64,000 nt of DNA. It comes from Hymenobacter tibetensis (GTDB lineage: Bacteria > Bacteroidota > Bacteroidia > Cytophagales > Hymenobacteraceae). How positions within the stretch are numbered: position 1 is the first letter of the stretch; every line of letters begins with the position of its first letter. The notes beneath the pieces are model-generated. The model did not search any database and was not told the DNA's origin. It saw only the letters and a list, made by a program, of their open reading frames with translations. Made by a program: the position numbers and the translations under genes. Shown piece by piece: positions 469-11,267 of the stretch. The stretch is taken from the NCBI RefSeq assembly GCF_022827545.1, contig NZ_CP094669.1, positions 2,756,001 to 2,820,000 on the forward strand, in the 5' to 3' direction.

Positions 469-1638
469 TTACCGCAGCGGCGCCGTAGTGAGCGGGGTGA
501 CGGGGGTAGTGGCGGGGCGGCGGCCTTGAAACTCGGGCATCGACACATTAGGCAGCCGGGGCAGCACGTACCGGGCGAAATAGTCGGCCTCGTTTAATAG
601 GGGGTAGCCCGAGAAGATGAACGCGCGGAAGCCCATGTCCATGTAGCGGTTGATTTTCTCCACAATCTGGTCGGGAGTGCCTACTAGGGCGCCGCCGGCT
701 CCGGAACGGGCCTTGCCGATATCGGTCCAGAGCAGGGGCTCCACGAAGCCTTCGTTGTCGGCGTGTTCGCGCAGTTGGTTTTGGCGGTGTACCCCCAACG
801 ACCACGAATCCTGCGCCCGGCTCTTGATTTCGGCGCCTTTCACCGGGTCAAATTTCGACATCAGCTTGCGGGCATAAGCCCGGGCTTCGTCCTCGGTTTC
901 ACGCACCACCACGTGGATGCGAAGGCCGAAGTCAATTTGCCGGCCGTGGCGGGCGGCGCGGGCGCTCAGATCCTGCATGGTTTCATAGAGCATTTCCTCG
1001 GTTTCCGGCCACATCAAGAACATGTCGCAGTATTCGGCGCACACTTGGCGGGCTCCTTCCGAGGTACCCCCGAAATACAGCAACGGGCCGCCGTTTTGCT
1101 GATATGGTTTGGCCGGATCAGAAGCCATATCAAACTGATAGATTTCTCCTTTGTGCACAATGCGCTCCTGGGTCCAGGCTTGCCGCAGGATGTCAATGGT
1201 TTCGGCGCAACGCTGATAACGCATCTCCGGCGCCTCCCGCAAACCAGGTAGGTCGGAGTTGATGATGTTGATGGTCAGCCGTCCTTCCAGCATATGGTCG
1301 AGCGATGCTAACGCGCGGGCCAACATAGGCGGATGAATTTCTCCGGTCCGAATGGCCGTAAGCAAGTTGATGCGCGACGTTTGGGGGGCAATGCCGGCTG
1401 CAAAGGTCATGACGTCTTGCCCCACCGTGTAGGAAGTGGGCAGCAGAATATTGGAGTAGCCGAGGCGCTCTGAGGCAAGCACTATGTCGCGGCAGTGAGC
1501 CCAGGAGCTACGGTAAGCGCCATCCAATACGCTCAAATATTGCGTGTCGCCACCGCATAGGTCGTCAAACCAAGATATTTCAGCTACGCGCTGGGGGGTG
1601 CGAATGGCAACGGAAGTGATAGGGGAGGAAAGCGGCAT
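469..1638 (-). CDS. LLM-class flavin-dependent monooxygenase, SsuD-like
   Basis: Predicted FMNH2-dependent bacterial-luciferase-family enzyme of the alkanesulfonate monooxygenase type, which releases sulfite from organosulfonates in the cytoplasm. The 389 residues fit SsuD (about 380). The TIM-barrel landmarks are present: an early EISWF segment, the [11 protein letters not shown] strand, NIINSDLPG, the substrate-side YFGGTSEGA stretch, and a C-terminal [14 protein letters not shown] motif typical of the family. No flavin reductase (ssuE) or ABC sulfonate transporter is seen in the window. It lies 85 nt from an APC permease on the same strand and may share its transcript. Family assignment is firm. 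The sulfonate substrate is inferred, and other LLM substrates are possible. Confidence 0.85.
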
Positions 1639-1723
1639 GAGGTGGGAGCGGAGTGAGCCGATGAAAACGTGAGTAGAACAGGAGAATGGTGCTCTGAGGC
1701 AAGAAAACTCTTTATGCAGGAGC

Positions 1724-3031
1724 TTACGGCAAGATGGGGTTCCGCTTGCGAGTCACTGTATACAAACCCAGCCCCACCACGGCGGCCACCGCAACGTCAC
1801 GCGCTTCCGTGCCTTTGCTGGTGGACAGCAGCCACACGCACAGGCCGACGCACAACGTAGCCAGCAACCGGCCACCCCGCACTTGAAACGGAGCTGGCTG
1901 GGTTGGAAAACGACGGCGCAACACGGGCAGGGCCGCGCAGGTAAGGGCGAAGTACGCCAGCCGAATGATGGTGCTCAGCGTGAGAGCATAGATGAAAGTA
2001 CCGGAAACTGCCAACGCCAGCTTCAGCACTGCCGAAACCAGCAAGGCAACATAAGGCGTGCGAAAACGAGGATGCGTAGCCCCAAAAACAGCCGGAATTT
2101 GCTTTTGCTCGGCTAAGGCAAACAACAACCGTGGTCCGGTCAGCATCAGGGCATTCAGGGTTCCCAGCGCCGTGAGCATAGCTGCGGCTGCAATGAAAGC
2201 CGCTCCAGCGGGCCCCAAAAATTGCTGGCTGGCACTGGCTAGGGGCCGCTCAGCAGTGGCCAATCCAGGTAGGGTTCCGATGCACACCACTTGCACTAAC
2301 AGAAACAGCAAGGCCACCGTGGCAATGGCCGTGAACAACGCAAACGGCACATTACGCTGCGGATTCTCGATTTCGCCGGCCGGAATAGCCGCCACATCGA
2401 AACCGGAAAAAGTGAAAATCAGCAGAAGCACGGCACTTGAAAAGCCGGTGTAGGAAGGAGGGGTAGCAAACGAGAAAGCCTGCCAATCCACGAAGAACAG
2501 CCCCACGACCGTGAATAGCAATAACACCAGCACCTTGCTGACCGTGAACAAGTTATTTAATAGGGAAGCCGTGCGCACCCCAATCAAGTTGACTAAGGTG
2601 AGAACCGCAACTAGCGCGGCCATCAGCACGACCCGCCCGCTGCCGACGCCGGCGCCTGGCCAGAAGTAAGCGGCATAATCCACAAACAGGTTGCACAATG
2701 CCGCAAAGCTCGCCAGGCGCGAAATCCACAACATCCAGCCCACTTCGAACCCCACCAGGGGCCCGTACGTCTCGCGGGCGTACAAATACGGCCCGCCCGT
2801 ACCGCTGAAACGGCTGCTTACTTCGGCAAAGCACAAAATGATAAGCGTGACGATGCCCGCACTCACGGCGTAGGCCACCAGGCTATAGGCTCCCACTAAG
2901 GCGTATATTTTCGAGGGTAGCCCGAGGATGCCTGCCCCGATGGTGATGTTGATAATAAGGGCCACAAAGTCCCAGCGGCGGATGCCACGTATCAAGTCGG
3001 GCCGGGCAGTGGCTGGCGGCAAAGGAGTCAT
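1724..3031 (-). CDS. APC-superfamily amino-acid permease
   Basis: Integral membrane transporter of 435 residues with about 12 hydrophobic segments. The N-terminal segment carries the APC signature ([21 protein letters not shown]) and is followed by [15 protein letters not shown], typical of amino acid/polyamine antiporters. I chose the ATG at 3031 because the family-conserved region begins soon after it. The longer frame to 3073 adds a poorly conserved leader. A good Bacteroidota promoter lies about 180 nt upstream. The substrate cannot be read from sequence. The location opposite a SAM riboswitch and beside an SsuD-like enzyme makes a sulfur-containing amino acid an attractive guess only. 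Confidence 0.88.
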
Positions 3032-3215
3032 GCGAAACAGGAAAGCGGTTGGAAACAGGCGGCGCAAAGCCACCAGCAGGGCACGGCGTTACGTTGTGGC
3101 AGGGCAACAACACGAGCGGTTTTCAATCAACTTCACTGGCAGCATCAACGAAAAGGCTAGAAGGTAGATGGGCTGATAGCCGTATGCTCGGCTGGTAACC
3201 GGCACGGCAGGAAAG

Positions 3216-3245: not shown

Positions 3246-3306
3246 GTTCCGGCTGCTTGCGTGAAACTACCTCTGAAAGCAGAAGTTGAGGGAGAGAAAA
3301 ATAAAA

Positions 3307-3339
3307 TTTGCATTTCTAAAAAATGCACGATTACATTTG
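3307..3339 (+). promoter_or_regulatory. Bacteroidota promoter upstream of the SAM riboswitch
   Basis: TTTG at 3307-3310, a 21-nt spacer, then TACATTTG at 3332-3339, a full match to TTTG-N19-21-TAnnTTTG. The predicted start near 3346 falls about 27 nt before the riboswitch stem P1, as expected for a riboswitch leader. Confidence 0.75.
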
Positions 3340-3372
3340 CAACATCAATTCTTTCCAATAAAGTAAAGGATT

Positions 3373-3466
3373 GTTTTTATACAGAGGCGCGGAGAGACAG
3401 GCTCTATGAACCGCCGACAACCCCCGGAACATCCGGAACGGTGCCAAGTCCTGACCATATAAAAAC
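3373..3466 (+). ncRNA. SAM-I (S-box) riboswitch
   Basis: The S-box core is visible. A perfect 9-bp P1 is formed by GTTTTTATA (3373-3381) and TATAAAAAC (3458-3466). Inside lie AGAGGCGCGGAGAGAC, then GGCTCTATGAACCGCC followed by GACAACC (P2 with kink-turn and pseudoknot region), a short CCGGA/TCCGG P3, and the conserved GGTGCCAAGTCCTG J3/4-P4 segment. This class binds S-adenosylmethionine and turns genes off when methionine is plentiful. The next gene on this strand is the SusC-like receptor at 3989. I see no obvious intrinsic terminator as expression platform, so the mode of control is unclear. Confidence 0.92.
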
Positions 3467-3988
3467 AACAACGCCGTGAGCACCTTCACCAGCTTTGCCG
3501 TCCTAGTTATCACCCGCGCCACCCTACAGCATGGGTGTTGTGGCTTGATGCGCCCATTCGTCTGTATGCAGATGACTGGCATGAGCTGCTAAGGACCGGG
3601 TACTACCCTTTTTCCTTCTTGTTTGCTCTTGTAGCTGACAGCGGTAGCGCGCTCGTTGGCTGCCCCACACCCTACGGGCCGAAGTACGCCCTTTTGGCCC
3701 TGCTCTGACCGTTTTGGGCGGTTACGGGGCAGGCACAGCCACAGCCCTTCGGCCCCAACCACTGCTTGTTTCAGCCCCACTGGTTCCGTCGTTTTTCTCG
3801 ATGGATTTCATTTGGCTGTGCCTGACTTTAGGCTGTGCTGAAAGCCACGCTGTGAGGTGTTTACGCACTCTAAACCGTCGTGCTTGGGCAGTAGGGCCAT
3901 TTAGGCGGTGCACGCCGCTTCTCCAGCAATACATAGCTGCGCTGCTAAGCTGCGCGGGATTTCGCTTGCCACTTCACTTTACTTTCAT
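3467..3988 (+). other. long leader between riboswitch and susC, no gene seen
   Basis: About 520 nt without a convincing gene. Small open frames exist on both strands (for example a plus-strand frame up to a stop near 3710), but none has a recognisable domain. It may be an extended 5' leader for the SusC gene or the decayed remains of a gene once directly under the riboswitch. Confidence 0.5.
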
Positions 3989-6900
3989 ATGAAATTATCT
4001 ACTCTTGGGGCGGTGCCCATTGCCTTACTGAGCCTGGCTAGCACGGGTTTGGCCCAAAATGCCCCAACGCAAACTGTGACAGGCACCATCCTCGATGCCA
4101 CTGACCGCAGCCCGATACCGGGTGTAACGGTGGTGGTGAAAGGCACTACGGCAGGCGCTTCCACTGACTCCAACGGGCAATTCACGCTGGCGCTGCCTGC
4201 CGGTAATAACACGTTGGTAGTTAGCGCTGTGGGCTACGTAAGCCAGACGATAAATGCCACGTCGGGCACCGTAAGTATTGCCTTGAAGTCCGACGTGAAG
4301 CAGCTCTCGGAGGTGGTCGTGACGGGGTACAGCGAGCAGAACCGCAAAACCCTGACCAGCGCCATCAGCTCGGTGAAGGGCGACGACTTGCGCGACATAC
4401 CGGCGGCCAGCCCCGACCAGTTGTTGCAGGGCAAGGCGCCCGGTGTGCAGGTGTCGGCCAACTCGGGCGTGCCGGGCGGGGGCGTGTTTATCCGCATCCG
4501 GGGCAGCAACTCGGTGAATGCCAGCAACGACCCGCTGTACGTGGTGGATGGCGTGTTCATCAACAACAGCAACCTGATTGCTACGGGCCTCGGCCAACAA
4601 GTGGCCTCTAACCCGCTGGCCGACCTGAACCCGCAGGACATCGAGAGCATGGAAATCCTGAAGGATGCCAACGCTACGGCCATTTATGGCTCGCGCGGGG
4701 CCAACGGGGTGGTGCTCATCCGGACCAAGCGTGGCAAAGCCGGCGACAAAACGCGCATCACCTTCAACACCTACCACGCTCTTTCCAAAGCCCCGAAAGA
4801 ATTCAAGCTGGTAACCGGGCCGGAGCTGGCGACGCTGGAAAACGAGCGGTTTTTGAATGATGGTGGCAACCCCGCGCAGCTGCCGTACCGCTCGGTGGCG
4901 GCGGGGGGGCGTGGCCTGCCGGAAGAGCAGCAAACCTACGACCGGCTCTCCGACGTGTTTCGGACGGCCCAAACCCAGAGCTATGAGTTGTCGGCGGCTG
5001 GGGGCTCCGAGAAAACGCAGTTCTACATCGGGGCGGGCTATTTCAAGCAGGAAGCCATTGCCCGGCCCACCGATTTCGACCGGTTCAGCTTGCGCGTCAA
5101 CCTTGACAACTCGGTGAACGACAAGCTACGCATCGGCACCAGCACCGCCCTGACGCGCACGCACCGCAACGTAAGCAGCAACGACAACAACCCGGTGGGC
5201 GTCATCAACTCGGCCCTGTATCCGCGCACCAACCTGCCGGTGTACAACCCCGATGGCTCATACGCCAAGTACGGTTCCTTCGACAACCACCAGGCCCTGA
5301 TTGACAACCTCAACAACGATGCGGTGGGCACCCGCGGCATCTCGAACCTGTATGGCGAGTACCGCTTCCTCAAGAACCTGACCTTGCGCAGTAGTTGGAG
5401 CATCGACTTCAACGAGATGTACGAAAACAACTTCAACAACACGCTGATTTTGGCCGGGCAGCCGCGCGGCACCGCCACCTCCTACCTCTCGCGCGACATC
5501 ACCTTGCTCAACGAACAGACCTTGAACTACAACGTGGACTTCGGGGACAACCACTCGTTGCAGGCGCTGGTGGGGAACACCATCCAGAAAAACACGTTTC
5601 AGCGCACCTCTCTGTTTGGGCAGCAGTTCCCCAGCAACGACCTAACCAGCATTGCGTCGGCGGCCACCCAAACAGGTTCGTCGGAGCGTTCGGAGGCAGG
5701 GCTGCTGTCGTTTTTCGGCAAGGCGACGTACAGCTTCAAGCAGCGCTACACCGCCGATTTCAGCTTGCGGGCTGATGCCTCGTCGCGCTTCGGGGCCGAC
5801 AAGCGCTGGGGCTATTTTCCCGCGGTAGGACTGGGCTGGCGCCTGGGGGAAGAGAACTTCATCAAGGACCTGGACGTGTTCCAGGAACTGAAGCTGCGGG
5901 CCAGCGTGGGCAAAACCGGCAACCAAGCCGGCATCAGCGACTTTGCGGCTCTGGGGCTCGTACAGGGCGGGGCCAACTACCTCGACCTGCCGGGCACTAC
6001 CCCATTGCGGCTGGCCAACCCCAACCTGAGCTGGGAATCGACGCGGCAGTGGAACGTGGGCTTGGACGCCGCCGTGCTGCAAAACCGCTTGCAATTGGAG
6101 CTGAACTACTACGACAAGTACACCTCGGGCTTGCTCCTGAACGTGCCGGTGCCGCGCAAAACAGGCTTCGCGTCTGTGGTGGAGAATTACGGCGCTGTGA
6201 GCAACAAAGGTGTGGAAGTGCAGCTGACAGCCAACTGGTTGCCCCAGGGCGCGGTGCAGTGGAGCACCACCTTCAACCTGGCCCGCAACGTGAACCGCAT
6301 CGAGAAACTGGCCGCCCCCATTACGGCCGGCTCGCGCGACATCTTCCGGCTGGAAGAAGGCGCCCCGCTTTACTCGTTCTGGCTCTACCACCAAACCGGC
6401 GTGAACCCCGAGAATGGCAATGCCGAGTACGAGGATGTGAATGGTGACGGACAACTGTCGGTGGCCGACCGCAAGCTGGTGGGCAATGCCTGGCCTGACT
6501 ACTTCGGTGGCGTAAGCAACTCGGTGAGCTACAAAGGCTTTGATTTCGGGTTCCTGCTGAACTTCGAGCAGGGTGCGAAAATCATGAACATGAACCGCTT
6601 CTTCCTGGTGCACGGCGGCACACAAAGCAACATCGGCTACCTGCGCGAGCAGCTGGACCGTTGGCAGCAGCCCGGCGACGTTACGGACGTGCCGCGCCTG
6701 ACCACCAACGCAGCCAGCAACAATTACGGCGGCGTGGTGCAGAACCTGAGCGACCGGTACCTGGAAGACGGCTCGTTTCTGCGCTTGCGCACCCTCACGC
6801 TGGGCTATACCGTGCCTAAGGAAGTGGTAGGAAGGGCGCATTTGAACTCGCTACGGGTGTACGTGCAGGCCGCCAACCTCTTCACTATCACGCCCTACTC

Positions 6901-7015
6901 CGGCCTCGACCCGGAAATCAACTCGCAGAGCGGCGTGCAAAACAGCAAAAACATCGACTGGGCCACGGTGCCTCAGCCCCGCACCTTCCAGGTGGGCGTA
7001 ACGGTCGGACTCTAA
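3989..7015 (+). CDS. SusC/RagA-family TonB-linked outer membrane receptor
   Basis: Outer-membrane importer of 1008 residues. A signal peptide ends near SLASTGLAQ. It is followed by a CarboxypepD_reg-like beta-sandwich (about residues 25-105, VTGTILDATDRSPIPGVTV), a TonB-box-like SEVVVTGYSEQ, the plug with the SusC signature (DPLYVVDGVFI, ILKDANATAIYGSRGANGVV), and a 22-strand-type barrel ending in an aromatic-containing beta-signal. I chose the ATG at 3989 because the signal peptide begins there. The SusD partner starts 12 nt after its stop. SusCD pairs import oligosaccharides or peptides. The downstream M14 peptidase and upstream SAM riboswitch favour a peptide-like or sulfur-containing ligand, which is inference. 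Confidence 0.93.
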   Translation: MKLSTLGAVPIALLSLASTGLAQNAPTQTVTGTILDATDRSPIPGVTVVVKGTTAGASTDSNGQFTLALPAGNNTLVVSAVGYVSQTINATSGTVSIALKSDVKQLSEVVVTGYSEQNRKTLTSAISSVKGDDLRDIPAASPDQLLQGKAPGVQVSANSGVPGGGVFIRIRGSNSVNASNDPLYVVDGVFINNSNLIATGLGQQVASNPLADLNPQDIESMEILKDANATAIYGSRGANGVVLIRTKRGKAGDKTRITFNTYHALSKAPKEFKLVTGPELATLENERFLNDGGNPAQLPYRSVAAGGRGLPEEQQTYDRLSDVFRTAQTQSYELSAAGGSEKTQFYIGAGYFKQEAIARPTDFDRFSLRVNLDNSVNDKLRIGTSTALTRTHRNVSSNDNNPVGVINSALYPRTNLPVYNPDGSYAKYGSFDNHQALIDNLNNDAVGTRGISNLYGEYRFLKNLTLRSSWSIDFNEMYENNFNNTLILAGQPRGTATSYLSRDITLLNEQTLNYNVDFGDNHSLQALVGNTIQKNTFQRTSLFGQQFPSNDLTSIASAATQTGSSERSEAGLLSFFGKATYSFKQRYTADFSLRADASSRFGADKRWGYFPAVGLGWRLGEENFIKDLDVFQELKLRASVGKTGNQAGISDFAALGLVQGGANYLDLPGTTPLRLANPNLSWESTRQWNVGLDAAVLQNRLQLELNYYDKYTSGLLLNVPVPRKTGFASVVENYGAVSNKGVEVQLTANWLPQGAVQWSTTFNLARNVNRIEKLAAPITAGSRDIFRLEEGAPLYSFWLYHQTGVNPENGNAEYEDVNGDGQLSVADRKLVGNAWPDYFGGVSNSVSYKGFDFGFLLNFEQGAKIMNMNRFFLVHGGTQSNIGYLREQLDRWQQPGDVTDVPRLTTNAASNNYGGVVQNLSDRYLEDGSFLRLRTLTLGYTVPKEVVGRAHLNSLRVYVQAANLFTITPYSGLDPEINSQSGVQNSKNIDWATVPQPRTFQVGVTVGL

Positions 7016-7027
7016 GCCTTACTCTAG

Positions 7028-8383
7028 ATGAAAAAGAACCTATACCGCCTTCTTTTCGCTTTTCACGCCACTGCGGCCACCCTGGGGCTAAGCGCCTGCA
7101 ACGACTTGCTGGAACCCACGCCCGTGCAGCAGCTGCCCGCCGACCGTGCCATTACCGATGCTGGCAGCGCCCGCTCGGCCACCATCGGCGTCTACGACCG
7201 GGTGCAGGCTTATTATCAGTTGAACTGGCCGGTGCTTGGCTTTCTACCCGGCGAAGACGTGCGCTTCAACGGCACGCTCAACCAGTTCCTGCAAATCGAC
7301 CAGAACCAGCTCAGCGCCGACAACGTGCTGATTACCGAAGCCTGGACCCAAATGTACCAGGCCATCAACGGCGCCAACAACGTTATTGCGGCCGTGCCCA
7401 ACGTGAATGACCCGTTGCTGCCTGCCGCCGAGAAAAACCAATTGCTGGGCGAAGCCTACTTCCTGCGGGCCTTGGTGTACTTCGATTTGGGCCGGGGCTG
7501 GGGCGGCGTACCCTTGGTACTCACGCCTACCCGCAGCAAAGAAAACGGCCAGGGTATCCGCCGCAGCACGCTCGCCCAAACCTACGACCAGGTGCTGGCT
7601 GACTTAGCGGAGGCCGAAACCCTGCTGCCCGACGCTACCACCCGCAACCGGGCCACGAAAGCCACCACTCGCGCCCTGCGCGCCCGCTTGCACCTCTACC
7701 GCCAGCAGTGGACTCAGGCCGAAACCAACGCCACCCAGGTAATCGGGAATACCAACTACAGCCTCGTGACGCCATACCGCGTTATTTCCACCGCGCCTTT
7801 CCTGAGCCGGGAGTCTATTTTCGAGCTGACGTTCAGCAACTCCGACGCCAACGCCATGTGGAACAACTGGTTCCCGAGTGCGCTCGGCGGACAGTTCAAC
7901 TTCCAGCCAGTGCCGGCCGCCATTGCGTTACTCAACGACCCGGCCGCAGGCGGCAGCCGCTCGGCTTTACTGGCTACCACCACTATTGCGGGGGCCAGCG
8001 TCACCTACGGCAACCTCTACAGCCGCTCGGCCCAGCGCGACGACCCGAGCTACGTGCTACGTCTAGCTGAGCAATACCTAATTCGGGCTGAGGCCCGCGC
8101 CAAGCAAGGCAAGCTCACCGACGCCCTAGCCGATTTGAACGCCGTACGCAGCCGCGCCGGGGTGCCCGCCAGCACCGCCGCCAGCGCCGAAGCCTTGCTC
8201 TTAGCCATCGAAAACGAGCGGCGTATCGAGTTTGCCTTCGAGGCGGACCGCTGGTTCGACCTAGTGCGTACCGGCCGTGTCGGCGTGGTGCTCGGCGTCA
8301 CCGACCAGCGCCGCTGGCTGTTCCCAATTCCCTTCAACGACTTGGTTGCTGACCCTGACCTGGAGCAGAACCCTGGGTACTAA
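7028..8383 (+). CDS. SusD/RagB-family surface lipoprotein
   Basis: Ligand-capturing lid of the SusC receptor encoded 12 nt upstream. The 451-residue protein has a lipoprotein signal with Cys in LGLSACNDLL. The SusD TPR-like helices follow (LGEAYFLRALVYFDLGRGWGGVPL; LTDALADLNAVRSRAGVP) and the C-terminal family motif ERRIEFAFEADRWFDLVRTG. It ends in NPGY, as many SusD proteins do. It is somewhat short for the family (about 450-600), suggesting a compact ligand-binding face. The stop codon directly abuts a large inverted repeat that may end or buffer the transcript. Confidence 0.93.
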   Translation: MKKNLYRLLFAFHATAATLGLSACNDLLEPTPVQQLPADRAITDAGSARSATIGVYDRVQAYYQLNWPVLGFLPGEDVRFNGTLNQFLQIDQNQLSADNVLITEAWTQMYQAINGANNVIAAVPNVNDPLLPAAEKNQLLGEAYFLRALVYFDLGRGWGGVPLVLTPTRSKENGQGIRRSTLAQTYDQVLADLAEAETLLPDATTRNRATKATTRALRARLHLYRQQWTQAETNATQVIGNTNYSLVTPYRVISTAPFLSRESIFELTFSNSDANAMWNNWFPSALGGQFNFQPVPAAIALLNDPAAGGSRSALLATTTIAGASVTYGNLYSRSAQRDDPSYVLRLAEQYLIRAEARAKQGKLTDALADLNAVRSRAGVPASTAASAEALLLAIENERRIEFAFEADRWFDLVRTGRVGVVLGVTDQRRWLFPIPFNDLVADPDLEQNPGY

Positions 8384-8555: not shown

Positions 8556-11267
8556 ATGTTAAAACCATACTTTTCTACTGCCCTTCTTGCGCTGGGCTTG
8601 GGCCTGACGCTGGCGCCAGCGGTGGCTCAAACTACCGGCTCCATCAGCTACTATTTCCCGAAAGCGCCGGCGGGCTCCTTCGACCCGGCCATTCCTACGC
8701 CCGAGCAGTTTCTGGGGTACCCAATTGGCTCACACTACACCCGCACCGACCAGATTGTGGCCTACCTGCGGGAGCTGGACCGTGTATCCGACAAGGTGAG
8801 CTTCCGGGTGCTGGGCAAGACGTTTGAAGAGCGGCCTCAGGTAGTGGCTACCATCACGTCGGTGGAGCATCAGCAGAATTTGGTGAAGCTGCAAGCCGAG
8901 CGCAAGGGTCTGGTGGATCCATCGTTGCCGGCGCCTGACTACGGCAAGCTGCCAGTGGTTATTAGCTTGAACTATGGGGTGCACGGCAACGAAAGCTCCA
9001 GCTCGGAAGCCGCCTTGCTCACGGCGTATTACCTCACGGCCTCCACCGCGCCCGAAACCAAGCAGTGGCTCGACCAATCCATTATTACCATTGACCCGCT
9101 GGAAAACCCCGATGGGCGCGACCGGGCCTCGCACTGGTTCGACCAGAACAAGTCGTGGCCGGCGGTGACGGATCCGCTGGACCGGGAGCACACCGAGGCC
9201 TGGCCCAACGGCCGCACCAACCACTTCTACACCGACCTAAACCGGGACTGGCTGGCCCTAACCCAGCCGGAAAGCCGGGCCCGCATGGCGTTTTTCCACG
9301 AGTGGTACCCCAACGTGATGATTGATTTTCACGAAATGGGCACCAGCAGCACCTACTACTTCGAGCCCACCAAGCCGCTGAGCACCGAAAACGACCTGAT
9401 TCCAAGGGCTACTTACGAGGTGCTGAACGTGCACCTGGCCAAGTACCACGCCCAGGCCCTCGACCAGCTCGGCGCCCTGTACTGGACCAAAGAGCAGTTC
9501 GATAACCTCTCGCCCATCTACGGCTCCACGTATCCTGATTTCCAGGGTGGTGTGGGCGCGACATTCGAGGTGGGCAGTTCACGGGGCATAGCGCAGGAAG
9601 GGGGCAATGGCGTGGTGAAATTTCCGTTCACCATCCGCAACCACGTGGCCACCGGCCTGGCTACCGTGCGCGGCGCAGTGGAAGAGCGGGAACTGTATCT
9701 GCGGCACCAGCGCGAGTTTTTTAGCTCGGCCCTGACGGCTGCCAACAAGTTTCCCACCAAAGCCTACGTGTTCGGCAGCGCCCAAGATCCTACGCTCACC
9801 AACCGCTTCTTGGAACTGCTACTCCAACATAAAATCCGGGTGCACGAGCTGGGCAAGACGGTGACGCTCGACAAGCAAACCTTCGAGCAAGGCAAGGCTT
9901 ACGTGGTGCCTACAACGCAACCTCAGTACCGCATCATTCACTCGTTGTTTGAAGAAGTAACAGCCTTCCACGACAGCGTATTCTACGACGTAACGGGCTG
10001 GAGCCAGGCCCATGCCTACGGGCTGCCGCTGGCCAAACAGAAAAACACCAGCTTGGTACAGGGCGCGCCGGTAGGGGCCATAAAATCCCTGACGGGCACC
10101 GTTAATGGCGGGGCCAGCAGCTACGCTTACCTACTGCCGTGGTCGGATTACAACGCTCCTAAGGCCCTGGTAGCGTTGCAGCAAGCCGGAGTGACGGTGA
10201 AAACCGCTTTCAAACCATTCCGGGCCGGCACCGCTACCCAACCTGTGGATTTCGGGTACGGCTCGTTGGTGGTGCCGGTAGCCACGCAAAAGCTGCCCGC
10301 CGATTCGGTGTTTCAGATTATCAGCCGGGTAAGCCGGCAAGCCCAGGTGACGTTCACGGGCGTAAGCACCGGGTTCAGCGTGGGCGGTATTGACTTGGGG
10401 TCCAATAACGTGCGCACGGTGCCGGAAGCTAAGGCGGCATTGCTGGTAGGGGCGGGCACCAACGTGGCCGAAGTGGGCGAGGCGTGGTTTGTGGCCAGCC
10501 AGCATTTGGGCTTGCCCCTGAGCCGCTTGGAGTTGAGCAACGTAGGCCGCGCGCCACTGGGCCGCTACACCACCTTGGTGCTGGTGGGCGGCAGCTACGC
10601 CAGCCTCGACAAAGCGGCCGTTGATAAAATCCGGCGCTGGGTGACGGATGGCGGCACGCTTGTTACCTTGAAGAACGCCTCGGAATGGGCCATCAAGCAG
10701 GGTATCGTGAAAGAGAAACTGCTGATTCCGGCCAACGGCGGCTGGGCCGATACCACCGCCTTTGCCGTAGCAGTAGCCGAAGCCACCCCGCCCGCCCCGA
10801 AAGCCACCCAGCGGCCCAAGAAAAGCGAACTGCCCTTCGCTAAGCGCGTGGACTTTGTAGAGCAGGAGCAGGAAGGCACCCGTGCCATTGCCGGTTCCAT
10901 ATATAAAGCCACCGTGGACCCCACCAACCCCATCGGCTTCGGGCTGACCAACCGGCAGCTGTTTGTGTTCCGCAACGGCACCACCTTCCTGCGGCCGAGC
11001 CGCAACCCCTACGCCACGGTGGTGCAGTATACGGCCGCCCCCCTGGTGAGCGGCTACGTGTCGCGCGCCAACCTGCGCCAGATCAGCAACTCGGCGGCTG
11101 TGGTGGTTAGCAAAGCCGGTACTGGCCGGGTTATTCTGTTCGCCGACGACCCCAACTTCCGGCACTACTGGCACGGCACCGACCGCCTGTTCACCAACGC
11201 CTTATTGCTGGGTTCCTTGATCAACCTGCCCGAGGGCCCGGCCACCGTTGCGGCCGAAGAGGAATAG
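8556..11267 (+). CDS. secreted M14-family zinc carboxypeptidase
   Basis: Predicted periplasmic or exported metallopeptidase of 903 residues. A signal peptide ends near LAPAVAQ. The M14 domain spans about residues 50-400: the zinc ligands HGNE (H143, E146), DPLENPDGRDR with the substrate-binding arginine, NRDW, and a third zinc His in MIDFHEMG. A later GATFEVGSSRG may carry the catalytic Glu. The C-terminal half (about 480-900) is an uncharacterised extension with a glutamine-amidotransferase-like beta/alpha fold. It follows the SusCD pair after a hairpin and could trim imported peptides. Family assignment is strong and the link to SusCD is contextual. Confidence 0.9.
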   Translation: MLKPYFSTALLALGLGLTLAPAVAQTTGSISYYFPKAPAGSFDPAIPTPEQFLGYPIGSHYTRTDQIVAYLRELDRVSDKVSFRVLGKTFEERPQVVATITSVEHQQNLVKLQAERKGLVDPSLPAPDYGKLPVVISLNYGVHGNESSSSEAALLTAYYLTASTAPETKQWLDQSIITIDPLENPDGRDRASHWFDQNKSWPAVTDPLDREHTEAWPNGRTNHFYTDLNRDWLALTQPESRARMAFFHEWYPNVMIDFHEMGTSSTYYFEPTKPLSTENDLIPRATYEVLNVHLAKYHAQALDQLGALYWTKEQFDNLSPIYGSTYPDFQGGVGATFEVGSSRGIAQEGGNGVVKFPFTIRNHVATGLATVRGAVEERELYLRHQREFFSSALTAANKFPTKAYVFGSAQDPTLTNRFLELLLQHKIRVHELGKTVTLDKQTFEQGKAYVVPTTQPQYRIIHSLFEEVTAFHDSVFYDVTGWSQAHAYGLPLAKQKNTSLVQGAPVGAIKSLTGTVNGGASSYAYLLPWSDYNAPKALVALQQAGVTVKTAFKPFRAGTATQPVDFGYGSLVVPVATQKLPADSVFQIISRVSRQAQVTFTGVSTGFSVGGIDLGSNNVRTVPEAKAALLVGAGTNVAEVGEAWFVASQHLGLPLSRLELSNVGRAPLGRYTTLVLVGGSYASLDKAAVDKIRRWVTDGGTLVTLKNASEWAIKQGIVKEKLLIPANGGWADTTAFAVAVAEATPPAPKATQRPKKSELPFAKRVDFVEQEQEGTRAIAGSIYKATVDPTNPIGFGLTNRQLFVFRNGTTFLRPSRNPYATVVQYTAAPLVSGYVSRANLRQISNSAAVVVSKAGTGRVILFADDPNFRHYWHGTDRLFTNALLLGSLINLPEGPATVAAEEE

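Follow-up and report, generated by a model that had tools for sequence, protein, structure and literature searches.

A SusC/SusD-type nutrient importer preceded by an S-adenosylmethionine (SAM)-I riboswitch and a short, cysteine-codon-bearing leader open reading frame (ORF) lies in a 64,000-nucleotide (nt) stretch of the 6.33-Mb genome of Hymenobacter tibetensis (contig NZ_CP094669.1, positions 2,756,001 to 2,820,000), hereafter the window. The importer genes, all on the + strand, encode a SusC/RagA-type TonB-linked outer-membrane transporter (3989–7015; TIGR04056, 849 bits against a curated cut-off of 368, with a SusD partner in the next gene), a SusD-type lipoprotein (7028–8383; PF07980 and PF14322) and an M14 zinc carboxypeptidase-like protein (8556–11267; PF00246, 64.6 bits). 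A preliminary description, made from the sequence alone, had named this gene set, and the family matches uphold all three assignments. Residues H143, E146, H259, and E338 of the M14 protein are invariant in 10 orthologs and supply the HxxE...H zinc-ligand pattern and the catalytic glutamate, the roles of the individual residues being those that we presume for them. The protein is probably exported, to judge by eye from its signal peptide; its AlphaFold model is poor (mean predicted local distance difference test score 60, much of the catalytic region below 50). The closest named relatives for the locus are Hymenobacter species, with SusD identity of up to 92% (H. norwichensis).

Results

The S-box RNA that had been proposed at 3373–3466 was recovered by the Rfam covariance model: RF00162 matched 3374–3465 (+) over its full length (model positions 1–108) with 66.7 bits against a gathering cut-off of 44.4 (E 2.3e-13 for 64 kb). 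One tRNA was the sole further match in the window at gathering level. SAM binding by this aptamer and switching of expression are predicted from the match. The promoter placed upstream of it (3307–3339, +) fits the form TTTG-N21-TACATTTG, also given as TTTG-N21-TANNTTTG, which we take to be the Bacteroidota promoter motif. A relaxed version of the motif precedes the aptamer in 27 of 38 close loci (the window and 37 others, L073–L109, with SusD 76–92% identical; L numbers designate loci), the strict version in 20 (shuffles: mean 0.31, maximum 2), and the leader alignment gives the same placement. The riboswitch had been described as the only control element ahead of the importer; that part of the preliminary description falls, because a Cys-rich leader ORF (3476–3592) and a covarying hairpin (3577–3628) lie between the aptamer and susC, and the remainder of its observation is confirmed, position for position.

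Leader conservation among the close orthologs runs about 170 nt beyond the aptamer and fades from about 3640, within the rest of the 5′ leader (3593–3988). The conserved part contains a 38-codon ORF (3476–3592, +) with a GTG start 10 nt past the aptamer, a TAA stop and Cys codons at positions 21, 22, 30, and 38, the last immediately before the stop. The ORF is 38 codons long in 26 of the 38 close leaders; in the 22 distinct 38-codon leaders the GTG and the stop are kept throughout and the four Cys codons in 22, 20, 20, and 18, respectively, including the tandem TGT TGT of codons 21–22 (3536–3541). These are the sequence features of a poly-Cys attenuator, a short ORF with Cys codons near its stop 5′ of sulfur genes, and Cys-dependent ribosome stalling that alters expression is predicted.

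An extended P1 helix of 11 bp has its 5′ strand at 3371–3381 and its A-rich 3′ strand (TATAAAAACAA) at 3458–3468; the 3′ strand occupies the stretch 8–18 nt before the leader start codon, stopping 7 nt short of it. Across the leaders scored positive by the rule given below, the start codon lies 1–15 nt past the aptamer, mostly 7–10. In the computed fold of the window leader the stretch from −18 to −8 goes from 0.04 unpaired with P1 to 0.97 without it, partly by construction. The hairpin at 3577–3628 encloses the 3′ end of the leader ORF together with its stop codon and shows two-sided changes in 9 of its 13 pairs; its covariation score was matched by none of 500 shuffles, and slid structures were clearly worse. 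The alignment used, from which the structure itself was derived, comprises 22 related sequences chosen from 38. Taken as a whole, the leader has a predicted fold that does not surpass those of its shuffled versions (z −1.2). In 3250–4050 intrinsic-terminator-like sites are no more frequent than chance predicts (one site, 3785–3805, against a shuffle mean of 1.2), so a classical intrinsic-terminator riboswitch is rejected for the importer leader; the usual, if not required, SAM-I expression platform, terminator or start-site, was not found there.

The conservation of this arrangement was followed by searching SusD in 120 genus and 204 family genomes and running a SAM-I model (R1), built from 12 RF00162 genus matches including the window element, on 80 loci and the window. 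SAM-I precedes SusD on the same strand, at 3–4 kb, in 37 of the 37 close loci, in 9 of 12 loci of a paralog class with 46–49% identity (it is absent in L110–L112) and in 12 of 20 loci of other family genera (L133–L139, L146, L147, and L149–L151). At 10 of those last 12 the M14 gene is separate, in divergent or convergent orientation, and is preceded by its own SAM-I element, which we read as two separate placements of one sensor ahead of both halves of the system. Among named genomes the element was present in 27 of 27 Hymenobacter loci (largely the genomes of the close set) and was not found in 43 of 45 non-Hymenobacter loci, of which L356, L374, and L391 end before the region; an Rfam scan of 11 of the 45 detected no SAM-I either. 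The element was found in the remaining two, both from Pedobacter (L376 and L377), where it stands ahead of a redoxin-like gene that lies immediately 5′ of SusC-SusD-M14. Mapping the SAM label onto a 72-row SusD tree takes four changes, three of them forced by supported branches, with 24 ungrouped rows uncounted. A single-genome accident is rejected by this conservation. The close loci, the named loci and the elements of one genome are related and the sets overlap, so the shuffle comparisons overstate independence. In two genus genomes (L091 and L109) the SusC and/or SusD frames look interrupted, and SAM-I and leader are retained.

The H. tibetensis genome has seven RF00162 matches. The other six head a cysteine-synthase-like (cysK-like) gene, a cysH-cysD-cysN-SUMT-cysJ row followed by a TonB receptor, metH-metF, metY-metX-ssuA-ssuC-ssuB, a unit of an ATP-grasp (RimK-like) gene and an SfnG-like flavin monooxygenase, and an APC permease (names without a family match were read from translations). 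Since these six units are sulfur-related or linked to such units, the importer belongs to a sulfur regulon. Of the earlier proposal that SAM-I controls the importer, the link between element and importer thus stands, being conserved and set within this regulon, and what does not stand is the riboswitch as sole control; the importer interpretation is partly supported and extended. The 959-aa TonB receptor in the cysH-D-N-J row (L010:588–3467, −) is a second outer-membrane receptor of the regulon, and the same row contains a DUF2490 protein (L012:13361–14128, −). Paralog SusCD units (L116, L117, and others of L110–L121, L140–L145, and L382–L387) also have SAM-I or poly-Cys leaders; the proteins of about 490 and about 560 aa that follow them gave no family match (two of each size searched against Pfam, fewer against NCBIfam).

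Poly-Cys ORFs after SAM-I aptamers recur in Cytophagales. They were scored by one rule: the first ATG or GTG 0–15 nt past the aptamer opens an ORF of 15–70 aa with at least three Cys, including a CC pair in the last 20 residues. Four further SAM-I leaders of the home genome (the cysH, ATP-grasp, permease, and metY units) have such ORFs, ending in CCC or CCCCC. Positives numbered 6 of 7 among the genome's own elements, 33 of 37 in the close loci (35 if any start in range counts), 11 of 13 in the paralog regions, 21 of 22 in other genera and 6 of 29 among the best genus matches; the order sets gave 11 of 27 and 19 of 40 and other orders of the class 5 of 50, these order and class sets being best-scoring matches and no random draw (L181 was dropped from the order sets at a contig edge, and each contains one positive from the family, L191 and L264). 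Dinucleotide shuffles averaged 0.02–0.26 positives per set, and a control of thiamine pyrophosphate (TPP) riboswitches from 26 genus genomes gave 0 of 30. The positive leaders encode 23–55 aa with Cys runs of up to nine, and 93 of 112 have a Cys within the last three residues. Cys is encoded by TGT 125 times and by TGC 62 times in 33 leaders that lie outside the family, and near the ends of 35 leaders, two of which belong to the family, TGY triplets are distributed 198:34:27 by frame; mixed codon use and frame bias indicate that what is preserved is the codons and not a fixed RNA motif, and a fixed TGTTGT motif is accordingly disfavoured in other lineages. The sequence TGYTGYTGYTRA occurs at 80 sites in the home genome against 20 for its backward control, so that it is not specific alone and only aptamer-adjacent sites matter. 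Cysteine-synthase-type SAM-I elements (L008 7953–7976 and similar) have a P1 of CTTATC/GATAAG, composite leaders mostly TTTATA/TATAAA.

The genes behind 30 chosen positives, named from their sequences, are metY (19), cysH (4), metX (2), sulfite reductase (2) and one each of an NhaC-like protein, an HPP-like protein and a TonB receptor (L272), with metH in none; behind 22 chosen negatives they include metH (10) and metY or metX (7). The second sensor thus appears to be associated mostly with the production or uptake of reduced sulfur, not with homocysteine methylation, and it is missing from some elements of that kind. The L272 receptor (L272/L271, G254:C64), from another family of the order, lies behind SAM-I and a leader ending in RCCCCCC; a sulfite-reductase unit some 5 kb away has a leader of this kind too. 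In another order SAM-I precedes a SusC-like receptor (L225) and a peroxiredoxin-like gene (L222), both named from sequence, with no Cys leader by the rule.

Most SusCD-M14 orthologs outside the family are without SAM-I, and in 11 of 25 such SAM-less loci a poly-Cys ORF precedes SusC, ending 81–199 nt upstream of it (shuffles: mean 0.08, maximum 1). Of 21 family SusC loci first taken as controls, five were positive (L140, L142, L144, L145, and L148); these belong to the SAM-less 46–51% class and are therefore members, not controls, and none of the remaining loci of the 21, the 38–42% class included, was positive. The cysteine leader is thus tied to the importer family independently of SAM, although not in every member.

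The partner genes of the importer suggest what it serves. Outside the genus, 28 named loci carry an M14 gene; their fetched flanks contain an ATP-grasp gene in 14 (55–82% identity to that of the home genome), an SfnG-like monooxygenase in 15 (75–84%) and an APC permease in 4 (72–81%), and redoxin-like proteins (three cases examined) and a pyridoxal-phosphate (PLP) enzyme of Cys/Met metabolism (one case) are also among the neighbours. In Spirosoma these genes form the row redoxin-SusC-SusD-ATP-grasp-monooxygenase-M14-permease, and the home genome holds the same partner genes in three separate units, each with SAM-I and a Cys leader. This linkage makes an outer-membrane-to-cytoplasm route for a sulfur compound likely. 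The M14, permease, redoxin and Cys/Met PLP neighbours fit sulfur-containing amino acids or peptides, and the M14 protein, redoxin and permease favour cystine or S-substituted cysteine peptides as the cargo; sulfonates, suggested by the monooxygenases, are a less favoured candidate.

Divergent to the importer lie a flavin-dependent (luciferase-like) monooxygenase (469–1638, −) and an APC-type amino-acid permease (1724–3073, −; PF13520), for which the Rfam scan of the window gave no SAM-I match on the − strand. The best-scoring solved chains for the monooxygenase are 7olf and 7oh2 (453 and 449 bits), filed as methanesulfonate sulfonatase and alkanesulfonate monooxygenase; we take both to be sulfoquinovose monooxygenases of the SmoC type, although the records name them otherwise and the link is unproven. 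SquD/SmoC are listed in a review (PMC12890257). Assignment of 469–1638 as an SsuD alkanesulfonate monooxygenase is not supported (TIGR03565, 247 bits, under the equivalog cut-off of 518), and the protein is distinct from the SfnG-like monooxygenase of the ATP-grasp unit. It occurs in 26 of 204 family genomes, 11 of the 26 copies being beside this SusCD locus. The pair (469–3073) is transcribed away from the importer at 11 of the 38 close loci, the window included, and the monooxygenase is 92–95% identical across the genus.

Discussion

The susC-susD-M14 set is probably a sulfur-scavenging unit under a composite leader, in which a SAM-I aptamer is joined directly to a presumably translated Cys- (or Cys/Met-) rich ORF; the importer would open when SAM and cysteine are both short. 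With SAM bound, the extended P1 would sequester the A-rich sequence preceding the leader GTG, translation of the leader ORF would be poor and the transcript would be cut short (OFF), probably through Rho or another factor, as no intrinsic terminator was seen. With SAM low the leader ORF would be translated; if Cys-tRNA(Cys) were also scarce the ribosome would stall at the Cys codons, the downstream hairpin and attenuation would be reset and susC would be ON, and with cysteine plentiful the ribosome would reach the stop and susC expression would remain low. The hairpin at 3577–3628 would be affected in different ways by a ribosome that stalls and by one that completes the ORF. Bacteroidota rely little on Shine-Dalgarno sequences. 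Because the stretch from −18 to −8 is freed without P1 and the GTG is mostly paired in both states, the switch may act on ribosome landing, not on the codon itself, or otherwise.

Several observations weigh against this model. The leader GTG is largely base-paired in the computed fold whether P1 forms or not (unpaired 0.17 against 0.06), so simple hiding of the start codon is unsupported. The ratio of nonsynonymous to synonymous variation (pN/pS) in the leader ORF, 0.83, is no lower than in the shifted frames (0.80 and 0.89), so no residue-level selection was found on it, the peptide as a whole appears unconstrained and its translation is unproven by this measure. C exceeds G 60–180 nt past the leader stop in 75–81% of 36 leaders, a modest excess that fits Rho but does not show Rho. 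On the side of the survey, four close loci fail the rule (L077 and L088 lack the CC pair; L076 and L090 have an earlier two-codon ATG frame), two of the 30 TPP controls pass once any start within 300 nt is allowed, and the order and class rates come from top-scoring matches. Seven of the 112 positives are cysK-type with a start at +5 (own cysK, L016, L019, L023, L029, L117_11062, and L120_1708; one from the own set, two from the paralog regions and four from the best genus matches), and these are counted as false because a terminator-like site (10 pairs followed by T7) occupies the place of the ORF in the own cysK leader. Among SAM-less M14 loci 14 of 25 have no poly-Cys ORF by the rule, both Spirosoma included; a looser rule yielded weak candidates in Chryseolinea and one Pedobacter and none in the two Spirosoma, and the divergent ATP-grasp units of 10 loci gave no poly-Cys ORF worth counting.

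The pN/pS value is what would be expected if a plain SAM-I riboswitch controlled the importer and the Cys-rich ORF were an untranslated by-product of conserved expression-platform sequence, and the nearly fixed TGTTGT of the close set, which could pair with ACAACA before the start codon, points the same way. Elsewhere, though, the poly-Cys runs mix TGT and TGC in one frame up to the stop, a poly-Cys ORF precedes SusCD-M14 even where no SAM-I was found, and the TPP control stayed empty under the rule, which together leave this account little room. Still harder to sustain is a working Cys-rich mini-protein (a metal or redox binder) in place of an attenuator peptide: its Cys-rich tail and the constant 38-codon length of the close leaders would suit such a product, whereas the N-terminal half is weakly conserved, pN/pS is near 1, lengths vary across the positives, and the ORF adjoins the aptamer and, in the cases examined, stands ahead of sulfur genes. 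The composite control might also be real while SusCD-M14 imports peptides in general, or glycans, and its tie to sulfur status has another cause. M14 is a general peptidase family, and the best-scoring solved SusC is 8aa4 (430 bits), above the peptide transporter RagA (335 bits) and BT_2264 (180 bits); control shared with cys and met genes, and travel with a monooxygenase, a redoxin, a Cys/Met PLP enzyme and a permease, make a non-sulfur cargo unlikely.

The composite leader resembles several known systems in part. As in other SAM-I riboswitches (RF00162), the aptamer has a sequence and fold scoring over the curated cut-off and sulfur genes downstream; unlike them, it shows no intrinsic-terminator platform, abuts a Cys-rich ORF and targets a SusC/SusD importer. 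The mgtA leader, which combines Mg2+ sensing with a proline-codon ORF, likewise unites a ligand sensor and a codon sensor, with a different ligand, codons, fold and lineage. RagAB and the glycan-utilisome SusCD importers share the SusC/SusD pair and an exported hydrolase; sugar-responsive regulators are usual for the glycan importers, in contrast to the SAM and cysteine leaders here. A mycobacterial attenuator is reportedly the subject of a 2020 paper cited in PMC13236596. In the parts of the report available, mycobacterial cys operons have poly-Cys leader ORFs with the Cys run near the stop, no conserved terminator hairpin and a suggested role for Rho (PMC1262725); the short ORF, the Cys run near its stop and the position before cys genes are alike, and the difference is that here, in Bacteroidota, it is joined to a SAM-I aptamer ending mostly 7–10 nt before the start. 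Tandem Cys codons also occur in uORFC-8-2 before cysS in Rhodobacterales, for which attenuation is proposed, an intrinsic terminator is present and, in the portion consulted, no riboswitch is named (PMC8632094); the terminator and the gene are other than here. In Flavobacterium a cobalamin riboswitch precedes a TonB receptor (PMC9723704), alike in standing before an outer-membrane receptor and unlike in its ligand, B12, and in that no Cys leader is reported in the sections seen. Searches of an open-access library listed no SAM riboswitch combined with either a Cys leader or SusC.

More broadly, a large part of sulfur control in Bacteroidota could consist of such composite leaders, a proposal that we judge about as likely as not. 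SAM-I output would feed into translation of a poly-Cys ORF, in place of a terminator or the start site of the gene itself, forming a SAM/cysteine AND gate that would also govern the sulfate and homocysteine routes and an unrecognised sulfur-salvage pathway leading from the outer membrane to the cytoplasm (SusCD, M14 peptidase, redoxin, permease, ATP-grasp ligase, and flavin monooxygenase). On this view the cysteine sensor is the older, and the SAM sensor was gained on top of it or lost on several occasions. If true, this would reveal how riboswitches in Bacteroidota exert control by way of a leader peptide, and it would define a sulfur-regulated SusCD importer with a testable pathway; a poly-Cys ORF, with or without SAM-I, would be a simple sequence sign for sulfur-uptake systems among SusCD pairs of unknown cargo.

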